From NCBI RefSeq assembly GCF_024372745.1, contig NZ_VOTZ01000017.1:1-57822 (forward strand): a stretch of 57,822 nt of DNA. The letters run 5' to 3'. Made by a program: the position numbers and the translations under genes. Below the pieces are notes generated by a model. It made no database searches, was not told where the DNA came from, and worked only from the letters and a program-made list of their open reading frames with translations. Shown here in pieces: positions 8,220-45,187 of this stretch; the first letter of the stretch is position 1, and each line of letters opens with the position of its first letter. This DNA comes from Methanocalculus taiwanensis. Its GTDB lineage: Archaea; Halobacteriota; Methanomicrobia; Methanomicrobiales; Methanocorpusculaceae.

Positions 8220-8792
8220 ATGCAGGATAGCATCCTTCATGAAGGCATCAACGAGGTGATCGGCACCACCCGCCTGAATGCCGCACCGATGGGCGTGATA
8301 CTCCGGGGCGGCCGCTACACGCTCGCCCTTTTTAAAGGAAGCCATACCGCAGAAAATATCGTCCGGGACGGCTGGTTTATTGCAAACCTGATCCATGATC
8401 CGGTAATCTATGTCGAGTCCGCATTTGGCGATCTCACTGACGATGTATTCACCACAGAAATAATAGACAGCACAGAGATGCACCGCCTCGCCGCCGCCGA
8501 GGCATGGGTTGCCTTCCGGGCAGAGGTGATCGGACAGAGCAGCGAAGCATACAGCATCCTCCTTACGCCGCTCAGAGAAGAAATCCTGGCTCGCTCCATC
8601 CACCCTGTGAACCGGGGCTTCAACGCGATCATCGAGGCAGCGGTGCATGCAACCCGGTATATCATGAACCACGATCCAGAACTGGAGTGGCTGATCCGGC
8701 ATCACCTGGCGCTTGCGAGGAAGTGCGGGGGCGAGCGGGAGAAGCAGGCGGCGGGGATGGTTGAGGAGTTGATCAGGGAAGAATCTTTGTAG
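8220..8792 (+). CDS. DUF447 family protein (COG2457)
   Basis: A 190-residue conserved archaeal protein of unknown function, thought to have a flavin-reductase-like beta-barrel fold. I chose the ATG at 8220 because GGGAGG sits 9 nt upstream and homologues begin near MQDSILHEGINEVIGTTRLNAAPMGVI. An in-frame ATG at 8124 would overlap the CitG-like gene. Its 3' half (from 8481) is duplicated about 1.6 kb downstream. It is the third gene of the marker 9/CitG-like group. Confidence 0.8.
   Translation: MQDSILHEGINEVIGTTRLNAAPMGVILRGGRYTLALFKGSHTAENIVRDGWFIANLIHDPVIYVESAFGDLTDDVFTTEIIDSTEMHRLAAAEAWVAFRAEVIGQSSEAYSILLTPLREEILARSIHPVNRGFNAIIEAAVHATRYIMNHDPELEWLIRHHLALARKCGGEREKQAAGMVEELIREESL
8481..8771 (+). 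repeat. Direct repeat, copy 1 (DUF447 3' end)
   Basis: These 291 bases align without gaps to 10097-10387. By hand I count about 19 mismatches (about 93% identity). This copy is inside the intact DUF447 gene and encodes its last 97 or so residues. Confidence 0.95.
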
Positions 8793-8874
8793 CAGAGAGA
8801 CGATCTATATTCTATAGAACGATCTTTGAAGAGGATAGACCCCGATATCTTCGTATTATGACCGGGAGATAATC

Positions 8875-9080
8875 ATGACATTCAGGAATTACCGTATTAT
8901 GCTCCGTAAAGAACCCGAAGGCGGTTACACGGTCACTGTTCCAATCCTGCCAGGCTGTATATTACCTTTGGTGAAACAATAGATGAGGCAATAGAGATTG
9001 CAAAAGAAGCAATAGAACTCTATATTGAGCACCTTCTGGAGAAGGGAGAGGAGAGATCAATAAGAGGCTCTCAGACCTGA
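8875..9080 (+). pseudogene. HicB-like antitoxin, frameshifted
   Basis: The reading frame begins MTFRNYRIMLRKEPEGGYTV and reaches LPGC at 8958. One base then appears to be missing (8959-8960). The next frame continues ITFGETIDEAIEIAKEAIELYIEHLLEKGEERS to a stop at 9080. Together they match a complete short HicB antitoxin (partial RNase-H fold). No HicA toxin is beside it. The last 10 bases overlap the convergent gene at 9071. A sequencing error rather than a true mutation is possible. Confidence 0.8.
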
Positions 9081-9883
9081 ATGCCTGCCCGGGAAAGAGC
9101 ATCTTCGATGGAGTGAAGTTTCTGTTTTATCTCTTTGAATTCATCATCAAGGCATTTTCCTGTCTCCTTTCGAAGACGTACAATCTCTTCTTTTGTCTCT
9201 TTCCCGGTCTGGTGCATCAGGTCTTGTTTTTCGAGCATCTGATCCGATTTCTCCAGCATCTGATCCTGCTTTCCTAACATCTGATCCTGCTTTCCTAACA
9301 TCTGATCCGATTTCTCCAGCATCTGATCCGATTTCTCCAGCATCTGATCCGATTTCTCCAACATCTGATCCTGTTTTTCGAGCATCTGATCCTGCTTCCC
9401 TAACATCAGATCCGATTTCTCCAACATCTGATCCTGTTTTTCGAGCATCTGATCCTGCTTCCCTAACATCAGATCCTGTTTCTCCAGCATCTGACTCTGT
9501 AACTGAAGGCTTGTTTTCGTATGATCGAGGGTTGCTTTTGAAACATCCAGTATTTCATGCATGATCATCCCGGCATAATCCATCCTTTCGAATGTTTCCT
9601 CCTGAATATCTCCCCTGATTATGTTAAACCTCTTCCATTCACCTGTTGCATCCCCCCATTCTACATGACATGAGGTGACCTGTATCGGGTAGCGAAGTAT
9701 GTTAATTTCTTTTATAAAGGTATGAATATCCTCTTCCCTCCCTTCGGCAACAATCTCGACTTCCTCTGTATCGAGATTCTTTACATACCCTGTAATACCA
9801 CCCTTAACCGCTTCTTTGCGAACATGCTCCCGATAGCCGACCTTCTGGACATAGCCATCAACGATCACATGAATTCGTCTCAT
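9071..9883 (-). CDS. Acylphosphatase domain fused to a heptad-repeat coiled coil
   Basis: A 270-residue protein. Residues 1-91 are an acylphosphatase-like domain (HVIVDGYVQKVGYREHVRKEA, then GYVKNLDTEEVEIVAEG). The usual GxVQGVGFR loop is altered to GYVQKVGYR but keeps the arginine. Residues 132-222 are 13 tandem copies of the heptad ML[EG]K[QS]D[QL], predicted to form a long charged coiled coil. The C-terminus is a further Lys/Glu-rich helix. The function is unknown: the acylphosphatase part may still hydrolyse carboxyl-phosphates or may only bind. It lies between the two DUF447 repeats, beside a broken hicB. Confidence 0.75.
   Translation of the reverse strand: MRRIHVIVDGYVQKVGYREHVRKEAVKGGITGYVKNLDTEEVEIVAEGREEDIHTFIKEINILRYPIQVTSCHVEWGDATGEWKRFNIIRGDIQEETFERMDYAGMIMHEILDVSKATLDHTKTSLQLQSQMLEKQDLMLGKQDQMLEKQDQMLEKSDLMLGKQDQMLEKQDQMLEKSDQMLEKSDQMLEKSDQMLGKQDQMLGKQDQMLEKSDQMLEKQDLMHQTGKETKEEIVRLRKETGKCLDDEFKEIKQKLHSIEDALSRAGIQV
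9218..9490 (-). repeat. 21-bp minisatellite, 13 units, coding
   Basis: Thirteen in-frame units of 21 bp encode the ML[EG]K[QS]D[QL] heptads of the acylphosphatase/coiled-coil gene. Units come in two main DNA forms, one coding KSD and one coding KQD, shuffled along the array. This is typical of expansion by slippage or unequal exchange. Confidence 0.95.
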
Positions 9884-10051
9884 TAATTATCACTATAGGA
9901 AGGGAATATAAAAATAGTTTCTTCTGAACCGCAGAGACTGGTTAGAGAAAGAGGAGACTGCGCCACAGTACGTAAGGTATGAGCTTGATCAGACACTAAC
10001 AAGCACCCTCCTCTCTGAAGACAGAATGATTACTCTCTATCCGGAATCTCT

Positions 10052-10396
10052 ATGAGGCACACAATTTCAACTGAGCTGGCCAATGGCACTCCGATACACC
10101 GCCTCGCCGCCGCCGAGGCATGGGTTGCCTTCCGGGCAGAGGTGATCGGCGAGAGCAGCGAGGCATACAGCATCCTCCTCACGCCGCTCAGAGAAGAGGT
10201 GCTGGTTCGCTCCATCCGTCCGGTGAACCGGGGCTTCAACGCGATCATCGAGGCGGCGGTGCACGGCACCCGGTACATCATGAACCATGATCCAGAACTG
10301 GAGTGGCTGATCCGGCATCACCTGGCGCTTGCGAGGAAGTGCGGGGGCGAGCGGGAGAAGCAGGCGGCTGGGATGGTTGAGGGGTTGTTAAAATAG
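10052..10396 (+). pseudogene. DUF447 C-terminal fragment (duplicate)
   Basis: An open frame of 114 codons. Its residues from HRLAAAEAWVAFRAEVIG to the end copy the C-terminal half of the DUF447 protein. The N-terminal flavin-fold half is absent. The first 15 codons (MRHTISTELANGTPI) are unrelated. No ribosome-binding site is evident before the ATG. It is best read as a truncated duplicate. Upstream, 9920-10055 holds another short open frame (ending RMITLYPESL) that I do not recognise. Confidence 0.8.
10097..10387 (+). repeat. Direct repeat, copy 2 (DUF447 3' end)
   Basis: Gapless match to 8481-8771 at about 93% identity by hand count. Many differences fall at codon third positions. The copy therefore probably stayed coding for some time, or came from a relative's gene. 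Confidence 0.95.
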
Positions 10397-10411: not shown

Positions 10412-10786
10412 TTAGAACTGCTTGTCGAAGATGACTTGCGTTGTTCCATCATTAAATGTTCCAGTAATAATAACCCTTTCTCCAGGCGAAAATTCGATAA
10501 GATCAAGATCACCGATTTGGGGGTTTTCGCCACTGTCGTCATTAGCTGGTGATGTAACATTCCAATAAGCGATATTCGTCAGATCAGCACCACCCTGCCA
10601 GGTTATCTCACCATATGTAGCATTAGTTTGTGAAACCGTCAGCCCAACAACCTTCGCACCCTGGACATTGCCAACGAGTCCGAAGACAAACGCTGCAATG
10701 ACTGCAGCTAAGATCACCGTGATGGCGACCATCAGGATAACACCGATAACCGGTGATACCGCATCGTCATTTCTCTTCATAGTCAT
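10412..10786 (-). CDS. Archaeal type IV pilin-like protein
   Basis: A small secreted protein starting MTMKRNDDAVSPVIGVILMVAIT. This is the class III (prepilin) signal of archaeal pilins. A short charged leader ends before VSPVIG, then a roughly 25-residue hydrophobic helix (VILMVAITVILAAVIAAFVFG) forms the filament core. The remainder is a short beta-rich domain. A prepilin peptidase would cut before the hydrophobic segment. The start at 10786 follows GAGGTG by 8 nt; ATG 10780 is an alternative. No assembly ATPase or membrane platform gene is nearby. Confidence 0.85.
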   Translation of the reverse strand: MTMKRNDDAVSPVIGVILMVAITVILAAVIAAFVFGLVGNVQGAKVVGLTVSQTNATYGEITWQGGADLTNIAYWNVTSPANDDSGENPQIGDLDLIEFSPGERVIITGTFNDGTTQVIFDKQF

Positions 10787-10852
10787 AATCGTACACCTCA
10801 CTGCCGAAATCCAACCGGATCCGGTGTGTATGATGATTCAATGGGGAATGAA

Positions 10853-33826: not shown

Positions 33827-33856
33827 ATACACCAAAATACCAATCCCAATAAAATT

Positions 33857-34348
33857 GTTCTCTGTCTCGATCTCCTGCCGACGCACATTGACGAAGTTGT
33901 ATCAGAAGTCAAAGATACTGTCTTTGATCCGGTATAACCCCTGCCGCTTACTCCCGAGGAGGGGGAGTTCCTTTTCGATCAACCCAGGCCGGGTCATCGC
34001 CTAAAGTAGGGGTAGAGATAGCGGGCGTCCATACCACAGAGATGTGAGATTGTGCCAGCAGATGTATTCCCTATGGCAAGGGCATTAAAATCGCCTGATA
34101 GGTCTTCAGCTTCCGAAATTCCTGTGAAAGGAGGTAGTAGGGCTACCGGTAGAAATACCCATACCTGTTGAAGAACTCACACTCAACGAAACTGGCATAG
34201 TCAGCATAGTCGCCTGCCTTGAGAAGGTACTTGGGAATTCCTCTGATAGTAAGGTGAATCTTAAGGGCATCCTTAAAGGAGATGGTGAGGAGAAAGGTTC
34301 GGCTATCAAAGAACCTGAGGGCTCCATGGAGCATATCACGAGTTCTCC
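33857..34348 (-). pseudogene. Decayed middle part of a DUF234-type archaeal ATPase
   Basis: These 492 bases align with 44204-44699 inside the intact ATPase gene, in the same orientation. Several one-base losses and stops have accumulated; for example the run at 33990-34000 and the stretch near 34083-34095 each lack a base relative to the intact copy. The P-loop part and the C-terminal nuclease-like part are missing. It cannot make a working protein. Confidence 0.85.
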
Positions 34349-41931: not shown

Positions 41932-41991
41932 ATGAATGCGTCAACGTCTGCCCACAAACATTATCTATTATCCATTCATATAATAATATGG

Positions 41992-42393
41992 ATGGCAAAA
42001 GAACGGTGGACGCACTCAGATACAACGGTATACAACATCGGATACCATATCATATGGTGCCCTAAATATCGGCGTAAAGTTCTCCAATCACCGATATCCG
42101 AAAGGTTAGAAGTTCTTCTTAAAGAGAAGGCAGATGAGATCGGAGTTGTCATCGAAACAATGGAGGTTATGCCTGATCACCTCCATCTGTTTGTCAAAGC
42201 TAAACCGACCGCAAGTCCACACTGGATTGTACAACAGTTGAAAGGATACACATCGAGGATACTCCGGCAGGAGTTCAAGCCATTGAGAACACGGTTGCCG
42301 TCATTGTGGACTCGTAGCTACTATGTTGAATCGTGTGGACACATATCCGAAGATGCCGTGAAAAAATACATCGAAGATCAGAAGCGGAACTAA
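41992..42393 (+). CDS. tnpA: IS200/IS605 family transposase TnpA (HUH/Y1)
   Basis: A 133-residue single-strand DNA transposase. The HUH motif is PDHLHLF (H63, H65) and the nucleophile is probably Y126 in KYIEDQ. Start at ATG 41992 (MAKERWTHSDTTVYNIGYHI). The frame is open from 41932 but reaches into the left-end region. The tnpB start follows the stop by one base. Confidence 0.92.
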   Translation: MAKERWTHSDTTVYNIGYHIIWCPKYRRKVLQSPISERLEVLLKEKADEIGVVIETMEVMPDHLHLFVKAKPTASPHWIVQQLKGYTSRILRQEFKPLRTRLPSLWTRSYYVESCGHISEDAVKKYIEDQKRN

Positions 42394-42394
42394 C

Positions 42395-43438
42395 ATGATT
42401 CTGACCTATAAACTCCGTCACAACCGCGATTTCAGCGATGAATTAAAGAAAGCATTCTCTGTAGCGGAGTTTGCAGTCAGGAATCCAAAGTGTCGAACAT
42501 CTGCTGCGGTCAAAGAGATTGGATTACAATCAGCCATCTCAAACCAGATTCTCAAGAAGTATGGAAACCAGAAAACAATCAGGCAAGTACGGAACGTCAA
42601 TCTGGTTGTACCGGGACAGTCAATCAAAGTAGATCGGGAGACTCAGACCATCCGGGTTGTCCCACTGAAATTGACGCTCCACTACCAGTTTCCAGAATTT
42701 GAGAAGGTCAATCAGATCGAGATCGATGCCAACTACGCCTATGTATCATGTACTGTCAGAGAGGAACCGGATATGATACCCCGGCAGTTCATCGGGGTTG
42801 ATCGGAATACTACGGGGCATGTGGCGGTAGCGGCGAATCCCGACACCGGGAAGATCGAGAAACTCGGTAAGAAGGCTATCCACACACACCGGAAATATTC
42901 TGCGATCCGAAAACGCCTTCAGAAACAAGGAAAGTTCCAAAAACTAAAAGCGATCAAAGATCGGGAATCCCGTATCGTCAAGGATCTGAACCATAAGATT
43001 AGCCGCAAGGTTGTCGATTTGGCAAAGGAACAAGACGCAGCACTTGTCTTCGAGGATTTGAGCGGTATCCGCAAGACGAGGAAGCAACACCGTTCGTTCA
43101 AATACGCCCTGCACAGTTGGTCGTTTTATCATCTACAACAGTTTGTAGAATACAAAGCCAAGCTGCTCGGCGTTCCTGTCCTCTACATTGACCCGGCATA
43201 TACATCGCAGGATTGTTCCAGATGCGGTGTGAGAGGTCAACGGCGAGGAAAGGAGTTTAAGTGTCCGGTCTGCGGGCACGTTGACCATGCTGATGTGAAT
43301 GCAGCATTCAATATCGCACTCCGTCAACAAAGCATGGTTGATCGTGTACAGAAAGAGATGTACACGATGGGAGCACTGATACCCCACGACGCAATGCTTG
43401 AAGAATGCCAGGCAACGTCAGAACCCCACGCGCTTTAG
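42395..43438 (+). CDS. tnpB: TnpB RNA-guided nuclease
   Basis: A 347-residue TnpB. The RuvC-like triad is present: D136 (GVDRNTTGH), E220 (VFEDLSG) and D300 (DHADVNAAFNIA). The zinc ribbon is C274, C277, C290 and C293. TnpB proteins cut DNA matched by a guide RNA transcribed from the element's right end, which helps element retention. The stop codon TAG lies in the loop of the right-end hairpin. It is on the short side for the family but no domain is missing. Confidence 0.93.
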   Translation: MILTYKLRHNRDFSDELKKAFSVAEFAVRNPKCRTSAAVKEIGLQSAISNQILKKYGNQKTIRQVRNVNLVVPGQSIKVDRETQTIRVVPLKLTLHYQFPEFEKVNQIEIDANYAYVSCTVREEPDMIPRQFIGVDRNTTGHVAVAANPDTGKIEKLGKKAIHTHRKYSAIRKRLQKQGKFQKLKAIKDRESRIVKDLNHKISRKVVDLAKEQDAALVFEDLSGIRKTRKQHRSFKYALHSWSFYHLQQFVEYKAKLLGVPVLYIDPAYTSQDCSRCGVRGQRRGKEFKCPVCGHVDHADVNAAFNIALRQQSMVDRVQKEMYTMGALIPHDAMLEECQATSEPHAL

Positions 43439-43825: not shown

Positions 43826-45187
43826 TTAACACATCGCTTCAATATCCTCAAGATCATAGACCAGAAACCCCTCTTCCCGGAGACGATCCTTCCCCTCTAT
43901 CCCGCCACCGATAAGGAGAAAGCGCTCATTTGGGTACTGCTCATGCCGGATAAGCTCTGCTTTCTGGATAAGTCGTGATAGGACAAGACGAGCCTTCTGC
44001 TCAGTGAGATTTCCCCACTTGCATTCTCCAATGACGATGCTTCCATCATTCTCCCTGACAGCAACCAGATCAACCTCCTCACCTCTATACCACCATCGCC
44101 CTATGGAATACCCCGGCAGAAAGGTGCGTGCAAACTCATTCCGAACGAAGACCTCGAATTGTTTGCCAAAATAGGGGTTCATATCAATAGTATCAGCAGA
44201 ATAGTTCTCTGTCTCGATCTCCTGCCGACGTATATTGATGAAATTGTACCAGAAGTCAAAGACACTATCCTTGATCCGGTATAACCCCTGCCGCTTACTC
44301 CCGAGGAGGGGGAGTTCCTTTTCGATGAACCCAAGCCGGATCATCGCCTCAAGGTAGGGGTAGAGGTGGCGGGCATCCATACCGCAGAACTGTGAGATGG
44401 TGCCAGCAGATGTATTCCCTATGGCGATGGCATTAAGAATCGCCTGGTAGGTCTTCAGTTCCCGAAATTCCTGCGAGAGGAGGAAGTAAGGTTCCCGGTA
44501 GAAGTACCCATACCTGTTGAAGAACTCACGCTCAACGAAGGTGGCATAGTCATTATAGTCGCCTGCTTTGAGAAGGTACTCGGGAATTCCTCCGATAGTC
44601 AGGTGAACCTTAAGGGCATCCTTAAAGGAGAAGGTGGGGAGAAGTTTTCGGGCATCAGAGAACCTGAGGGCGCCAAGGAGCATATCACGGGTTCTCCGTC
44701 CGTAGAGAGGAGATGTATAGGAGAGGGCTGTATCCGTTATCAGGCCAAGCATCGATCCCGAGAGTATAATGCACCAGTTAGATTTAGCGAGGGCATTGTC
44801 CCACGCCTTTTGGAGGGCAGAGAGGATGGACGGATCATTCTTAATCAGGTAGGTAAATTCATCAATGACAAGGTACCGGCGCTCAGGGAGGCTTTTTCCA
44901 GCCAGATACGTGAATAGTTGATCCCAATTTGTAAGCTCAAGCGAAGGGAGGAGGGGATCGGCAAAGAACCCTGCTATTGCATCCTGAAGTCGTCGCAACT
45001 GTATTTGAGGTGCAGTATCATCGGCGAAGTAGAGAATGCCTTTCTTTTCCCGAATAAACTCTGAAACGAGGCGGGTCTTACCGATTCGGCGGCGACCGTA
45101 GAGGATGATCAAACGCCCGCCATCTTTATTCCACTCTTCTTCGAGGATGGCGAGCTCGGTTTCGCGGCCGACGAACTTCCTAATCAT
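43826..45187 (-). CDS. Archaeal ATPase with C-terminal DUF234 nuclease-like domain
   Basis: A 453-residue protein. The STAND-like P-loop ATPase domain starts FVGRETELAILEEEW, with Walker A YGRRRIGKTRLV and Walker B YLVIDEFTYL. A winged-helix part follows. The C-terminal DUF234 domain has a PD-(D/E)xK-like signature: D in GEEVDLVAV and ExK in IVIGECKWG. Such proteins are abundant in archaea and often near mobile DNA; a defence role is suspected but unproven. A decayed copy lies at 33857-34348. Confidence 0.85.
   Translation of the reverse strand: MIRKFVGRETELAILEEEWNKDGGRLIILYGRRRIGKTRLVSEFIREKKGILYFADDTAPQIQLRRLQDAIAGFFADPLLPSLELTNWDQLFTYLAGKSLPERRYLVIDEFTYLIKNDPSILSALQKAWDNALAKSNWCIILSGSMLGLITDTALSYTSPLYGRRTRDMLLGALRFSDARKLLPTFSFKDALKVHLTIGGIPEYLLKAGDYNDYATFVEREFFNRYGYFYREPYFLLSQEFRELKTYQAILNAIAIGNTSAGTISQFCGMDARHLYPYLEAMIRLGFIEKELPLLGSKRQGLYRIKDSVFDFWYNFINIRRQEIETENYSADTIDMNPYFGKQFEVFVRNEFARTFLPGYSIGRWWYRGEEVDLVAVRENDGSIVIGECKWGNLTEQKARLVLSRLIQKAELIRHEQYPNERFLLIGGGIEGKDRLREEGFLVYDLEDIEAMC

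Follow-up and report, generated by a model that had tools for sequence, protein, structure and literature searches.

Bacterial rhs loci carry core fragments of varying length which are nearly identical to the upstream core and have different tips, and homologous recombination with circular intermediates has been proposed for them (Jackson et al. 2009, PMC2935791). For the T6SS arrays of Vibrio cholerae homology-facilitated illegitimate recombination has been proposed (Kirchberger et al. 2017, PMC5361080). For the E. coli prophage e14 in icd, the copy icdC is described as 165 bp long and as carrying 12 exchanges (PMC11148124). Here we analyze a stretch of 57,822 nucleotides of the archaeon Methanocalculus taiwanensis (contig NZ_VOTZ01000017.1, genome G000; the whole stretch is called the window), in which the 3′ end of a DUF447 gene is present twice. 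We suggest that accessory DNA has probably landed repeatedly at the 3′ end of DUF447 in methane-producing archaea of the order Methanomicrobiales and that this DNA is captured by an integrase-free, homology-anchored process. A literature search on DUF447 gave nothing relevant.

The features of the locus are collected in Table 1. A sequence-only reading of this DNA had reported an ungapped direct duplication of 291 bp with about 93% identity. Our recount agrees, as 272 of the 291 bases are the same between 8481–8771 and 10097–10387 (93.5%) and, of the 19 differences, 13 are found at third codon positions. The direct repeat can also be drawn as 8470–8769 and 10086–10385 (92% over 300 nt). The blastn E value of the pair is about 1e-125, far outside chance expectation, and the two DUF447 copies are the sole long (>250 nt) pair of high identity in the locus region of the window. 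The repeat is thus real, but its extent was given somewhat too short: the similarity sets in near 10086 and may reach weakly as far as about 10039, so that the displaced piece is slightly longer than 291 nt.

Table 1. Features of the DUF447 locus in the window
Feature	Position	Strand	Remarks
Intact DUF447 gene	8220..8792	+	ORF from 8124, ATG at 8220 likely; Pfam PF04289 and PF20766
Tail of the intact DUF447			Cassette type (type B) in both the last codons (LIREESL before the stop) and the DNA past the stop; common to the G003 middle copy, G004, G007 and G001
Left repeat copy, 3′ half of DUF447	8470..8771	+	Self-comparison
Intergenic stretch and broken hicB	8793..9070	+	hicB 8875-9068, HicB_lk_antitox PF15919
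Cargo: acylphosphatase domain fused to about a dozen coiled-coil-like repeats of 7 aa (21 bp)	9071..9883	-	PF00708; 21-bp tandem copies
Displaced native DUF447 3′ end, 5′-truncated	10086..10396	+	ORF 10052-10396; pilin-side tail (type A), EGLLK before the stop
Archaeal type IV pilin gene	10412..10801	-	PF07790; adjoins DUF447 in empty-site relatives

Open reading frames and Pfam domains bear out that the repeats flank only a broken hicB and the acylphosphatase/heptad gene, and there is no integrase or transposase among the open reading frames between them. The hicB gene of the window has a frameshift near 8961 and has lost its 3′ end; the homologous hicB genes of G003, G004 and G007 are intact. 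A hicA gene was not found at the window locus. The insert is poor in G+C (43.4% vs 56.9% for DUF447). The pilin gene is convergent with DUF447 and is its native downstream neighbour. A cassette borne by an insertion sequence or transposon is not supported, as 8793–10085 has no transposase-like open reading frame and inverted repeats of at least 40 nt are absent from the window. Elsewhere in the window, 33853–34348 and 44200–44697 are paired, the former being an about 90% identical fragment of an archaeal ATPase gene (43826–45187) 10.35 kb apart, with an IS200/IS605-like gene pair (41932–43438) between fragment and gene.

We compared the locus in eight genomes of the genus, the window genome G000 and the seven congeneric genomes G001–G007. 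G004 and most relatives are draft contigs, and the G004 contig ends inside the hicB cassette. This cassette lies behind DUF447 in G000, G003, G004 and G007. The other four of the eight genomes (G001, G002, G005 and G006) are cassette-free, with no hicB, no second copy of DUF447 and the pilin gene coming next. In G002, G005 and G006 a DUF447 with the pilin-side tail directly adjoins the pilin gene. An uninterrupted junction of this kind in some close relatives is what the sequence-only reading had asked to look for in order to define the cassette ends; the same arrangement in every relative, which it had named as the refuting outcome, was not observed.

Alignment of the 3′ ends separates two types of tails. 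The pilin-side tail (type A), with GLLK before the stop, is found in G002, G005 and G006 and in the downstream copies of G000 and G003. Type B, in which REESL and the stop are followed by GCAGAGAGATTATCTATA-like DNA, is found in the intact gene of G000, G004 and G007, in the middle copy of G003 and in G001, which is cassette-free yet retains only this cassette-type tail. Because the two tails match those of the empty-site and of the hicB-bearing relatives, respectively, the downstream copy is the native end of DUF447, and the current end of the intact gene arrived together with the cassette. The earlier proposal of integration into the 3′ end or of recombination with the locus of a relative is therefore supported by the empty sites, the tail types and the recurrence described below. 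G001 looks like a cassette carrier after deletion of the cargo and the right copy. In a tree of the flanking genes, G006 (empty, type A) stands beside G001 (type B) with a support of 91, within a clade containing G004 and G000 (94 and 99). Since G006 nests in this clade, we favour that it would have lost the cassette and had its old tail restored, either via recombination between the copies or via exchange with an empty-site relative.

When the displaced copy of the window is compared with G001, 3, 2 and 15 differences fall on codon positions 1, 2 and 3. The displaced copy has six private changes and the upstream copy has ten. This codon-structured divergence together with the few private changes indicates that the displaced copy served as a functional coding end until fairly recently.

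Stacked copies are found in G003, whose locus stretch contains a run of 93 N. Here the order is a full DUF447 with a third tail, an AlbA_2/Schlafen-like gene (588 aa, PF04326), a 3′ copy with type B tail, hicBA, a shorter 3′ copy with type A tail and the pilin gene. The right copy is frameshifted, and an open reading frame of 105 aa is present in a G003 copy. This order records two successive displacements at the same gene, of which the newer lies closer to DUF447. The right junctions of the G003 middle copy and of G000 are no more than about 15 nt apart in DUF447, which could hint at a preferred site.

We then extended the search to the whole order (232 genomes, 208 of them with DUF447). Displaced copies were found only in G000, G003, G007, G099 and G113, that is in 5/208 DUF447-bearing genomes; in G003 (twice), G007, G099 and G113 the inserts differ from that of the window. 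Second matches to the DUF447 C-terminus outside the genus are limited to G099 and G113, which belong to two other families. These are independent cases, with other inserts and junctions. In G113 a 273-nt copy (89%) which reaches the stop is located 720 bp behind DUF447 and before the pilin gene, and its relatives G111, G114 and G108 have an empty site. The G099 fragment measures about 119 nt (91%) and is located behind a TM2-domain gene; the DNA that comes after it equals the DNA natively found downstream in G098, a relative with 96% identity. The intact DUF447 of G099 has a new tail, and G094 and G100 carry a related TM2 gene behind their DUF447. The polarity is that of the window, with a native downstream fragment and a newly tailed intact gene. 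The displaced copies of G007 and G099 are decayed or without a normal frame end. At the other DUF447 loci examined there is no same-strand copy. The accessory inserts at DUF447 measure about 0.7–2.4 kb and are without viral genes.

Further observations were made behind DUF447 genes of the order. G031, from a different family, has an acylphosphatase-only open reading frame about 265–531 bp behind DUF447 and, 3057–3224 bp behind it, a hicB 80% identical to that of the window (locus L117). In G110 the extreme end of DUF447 recurs as a 36-nt copy (83%) about 107 bp past the stop (L195). In G037 a 70-nt inverted match (76%) to the DUF447 3′ sequence lies about 1.5 kb behind the gene (2554–2619 of the oriented locus L130).

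The displacement appears to be particular to DUF447 among the conserved genes compared. The gene has a displaced copy in 5/42 genomes from the affected families, and the two neighbouring control genes have none (CitG 0/42, AIR-synthase-like 0/38); as the 42 genomes were picked to include the positive families, 5/42 vs 0/80 is a comparison and not an unbiased rate. In a scan of 855 kb (G000, G007 and G098) DUF447 was the sole conserved gene whose 3′ end had a displaced copy. We therefore rejected, for conserved genes, a general tendency of the genome to duplicate the 3′ ends of its genes; accessory genes show short similar fragments. Partial duplication may therefore extend past DUF447 in accessory regions, as hicA and heptad-gene 3′ fragments illustrate. 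Direct repeats which overlap hicA-like genes in their 3′ part are present in G032 (L129, 1696–1984 and 4471–4759, 289 nt, 94%) and in G027 (L128, 5947–6151 and 9797–10001, 205 nt, 92%); here an accessory gene may have been displaced in a like manner. In contig C53 of G004 (L107, 2425–2496 and 5425–5496) the 3′ end of an acylphosphatase/heptad gene is duplicated 3 kb apart (72 nt, 88%). The acylphosphatase/heptad family has multiple copies scattered through the order, and several of them lie no farther than about 1 kb from a hicB gene. The sequence-only reading had also proposed a search for the hicB/acylphosphatase cassette beside other 3′ gene fragments: repeat searches around 18 loci, mostly hicB and heptad genes, gave no comparable long bracket of 3′ gene ends except at the DUF447 locus of G099.

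We suggest that the capture proceeds in the following steps. The incoming DNA would carry a homologous DUF447 3′ end followed by the cargo, which could be hicBA, an AlbA_2/Schlafen gene, a TM2-domain gene or an acylphosphatase/heptad gene. No dedicated integrase would take part in its recombination within the 3′ half of the resident gene: a circle could enter by a single Campbell-type crossover, and a fragment with homology at one end could enter if its other end were joined illegitimately. The resident DUF447 would stay intact and now end with the incoming tail, and the old 3′ end, 5′-truncated at a variable point, would be displaced past the cargo beside its old neighbour. A second event would repeat the displacement, so that the tails are stacked by age. 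Finally, recombination between the direct copies could excise the cargo and restore the old tail. The polarity, the recurrence in three families, the stacking, the variable right junctions and the lack of a nearby integrase can be read directly from the loci. From these we infer the homologous or illegitimate enzymology of the recombination, the circular or linear state of the incoming DNA and the excision. A circular intermediate or donor molecule was not found. DUF447 may be used as a site for the ordinary reason that its last codons tolerate change and that the convergent neighbour leaves room for an insertion. More speculatively, and we regard this as possible but doubtful, the conserved and housekeeping-like DUF447 might be a site at which cassettes are captured through homology and without an integrase: DNA circles made up of a DUF447 3′ end and a small accessory gene might move between Methanomicrobiales chromosomes by ordinary recombination, insert harmlessly, stack and exit via the repeats.

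A site-specific integrative element, a virus or satellite, could also have used the DUF447 3′ end as att and supplied a replacement 3′ end, as e14 does in icd; the present inserts would then be what is left of such elements, or satellites that depend on an integrase in trans for their mobility. One gene is indeed targeted in three families, the copies in G003 are stacked in tandem, and the replacement tail with the displaced native tail, as seen in the tail comparison, is the exact anatomy of e14/icdC. The other e14/icd-type feature, an integrase on the element or nearby, is absent from 70 DUF447 loci. There is none between the repeats, nor over the first 8 kb or so behind DUF447 in the relatives which we examined, and a profile made from the Xer-like recombinases of the genus detected no tyrosine recombinase near DUF447 in the 70 loci. 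As a control, a version of the profile built without the divergent extra integrase of G002 still detects it. Each genus genome has a single, syntenic Xer-like recombinase (only a weak partial match in the draft G006), and the one extra recombinase of G002 is far from the DUF447 locus. The integrase could have been lost or could act in trans, but the inserts are small and devoid of viral genes, and a DUF447 3′ end was not present in viral contigs, phages or plasmids. Further, the right junctions are found at about 323, 308, 273, 183 and 150–200 nt ahead of the stop, which may argue against a fixed core boundary on the right side. The left junction is inside homologous DUF447 sequence and the right junction at variable non-shared points. 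Since the anatomy matches the rhs and V. cholerae T6SS cases, the junctions vary and there is no link to an integrase or virus, we prefer the homology-anchored, integrase-free capture as the probable route and consider an element with a lost or in-trans integrase rather unlikely. The mechanism, which the sequence-only reading had left open, is in this way narrowed to a favoured route, short of proof.

The 3′ end could also have been duplicated in tandem long ago by a chromosomal rearrangement such as replication slippage or unequal exchange, with accessory genes entering later. This would agree with the copies being more alike within each genome than between species. Because of this likeness gene conversion may also have blurred the crossover point. 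Such a duplication is contradicted, however, by the empty sites in close relatives, which are not uniformly duplicated, and by the different, lineage-independent tails of upstream and downstream copies; G003 would even require two separate events with different tails. We rejected it as very improbable. Least probable of all is a separate, functional C-terminal DUF447 protein retained from the truncated copies. The open frames (10052–10396 in the window, 105 aa in G003) and the codon structure of the G000 copy speak for it; the decayed copies or lost frame ends in G007 and G099 and the frameshifted right copy in G003 speak against it, and recent displacement alone predicts codon structure.

Small accessory genes such as toxin–antitoxin and Schlafen-like genes spread among archaea without a visible mobility gene, and the DUF447 locus records how. 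Every arrival leaves the prior 3′ end behind, so that order and polarity are readable from the DNA. Any collection of genomes could be searched for displaced gene tails as a mark of gene capture without an integrase.

In summary, the locus resembles several known systems and is identical to none of them. As in Rhs displacement (PMC2935791), 5′-truncated fragments which vary in length and are almost the same as the intact gene before them are stacked downstream with differing ends and cargo, the inserts are G+C-poor, and there is no accessory-element integrase. The gene is DUF447 by Pfam, however, and not an Rhs/YD-repeat toxin gene with an exchangeable toxic tip. In the polymorphic Rhs toxins selection acts on the tip that is exchanged, whereas DUF447 is a conserved non-toxin gene which changes just its last few codons, the cargo lying past the stop codon. 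With the effector–immunity modules of the V. cholerae T6SS (PMC5361080) the locus shares a single homologous anchor and older genes shifted downstream in the order of arrival, but there the displaced immunity gene is intact and useful, and the DUF447 leftover is a truncated and usually decaying 3′ end. As with e14/icdC (PMC11148124), the insert gives the gene a new 3′ end and the native one, about 93% identical, is found on the far side; e14 is a prophage with an integrase, whereas the DUF447 cases have no integrase, small cargo, a variable boundary and longer copies. The array-like stacking with the newest unit beside a fixed point is reminiscent of integron gene cassettes, but no attC-like site was identified, no integrase was found and what is repeated is the 3′ end of a protein-coding gene. 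The bookkeeping by displacement is thus already known from bacterial Rhs toxin loci and an E. coli prophage, and new here is that it occurs at an ordinary archaeal gene.
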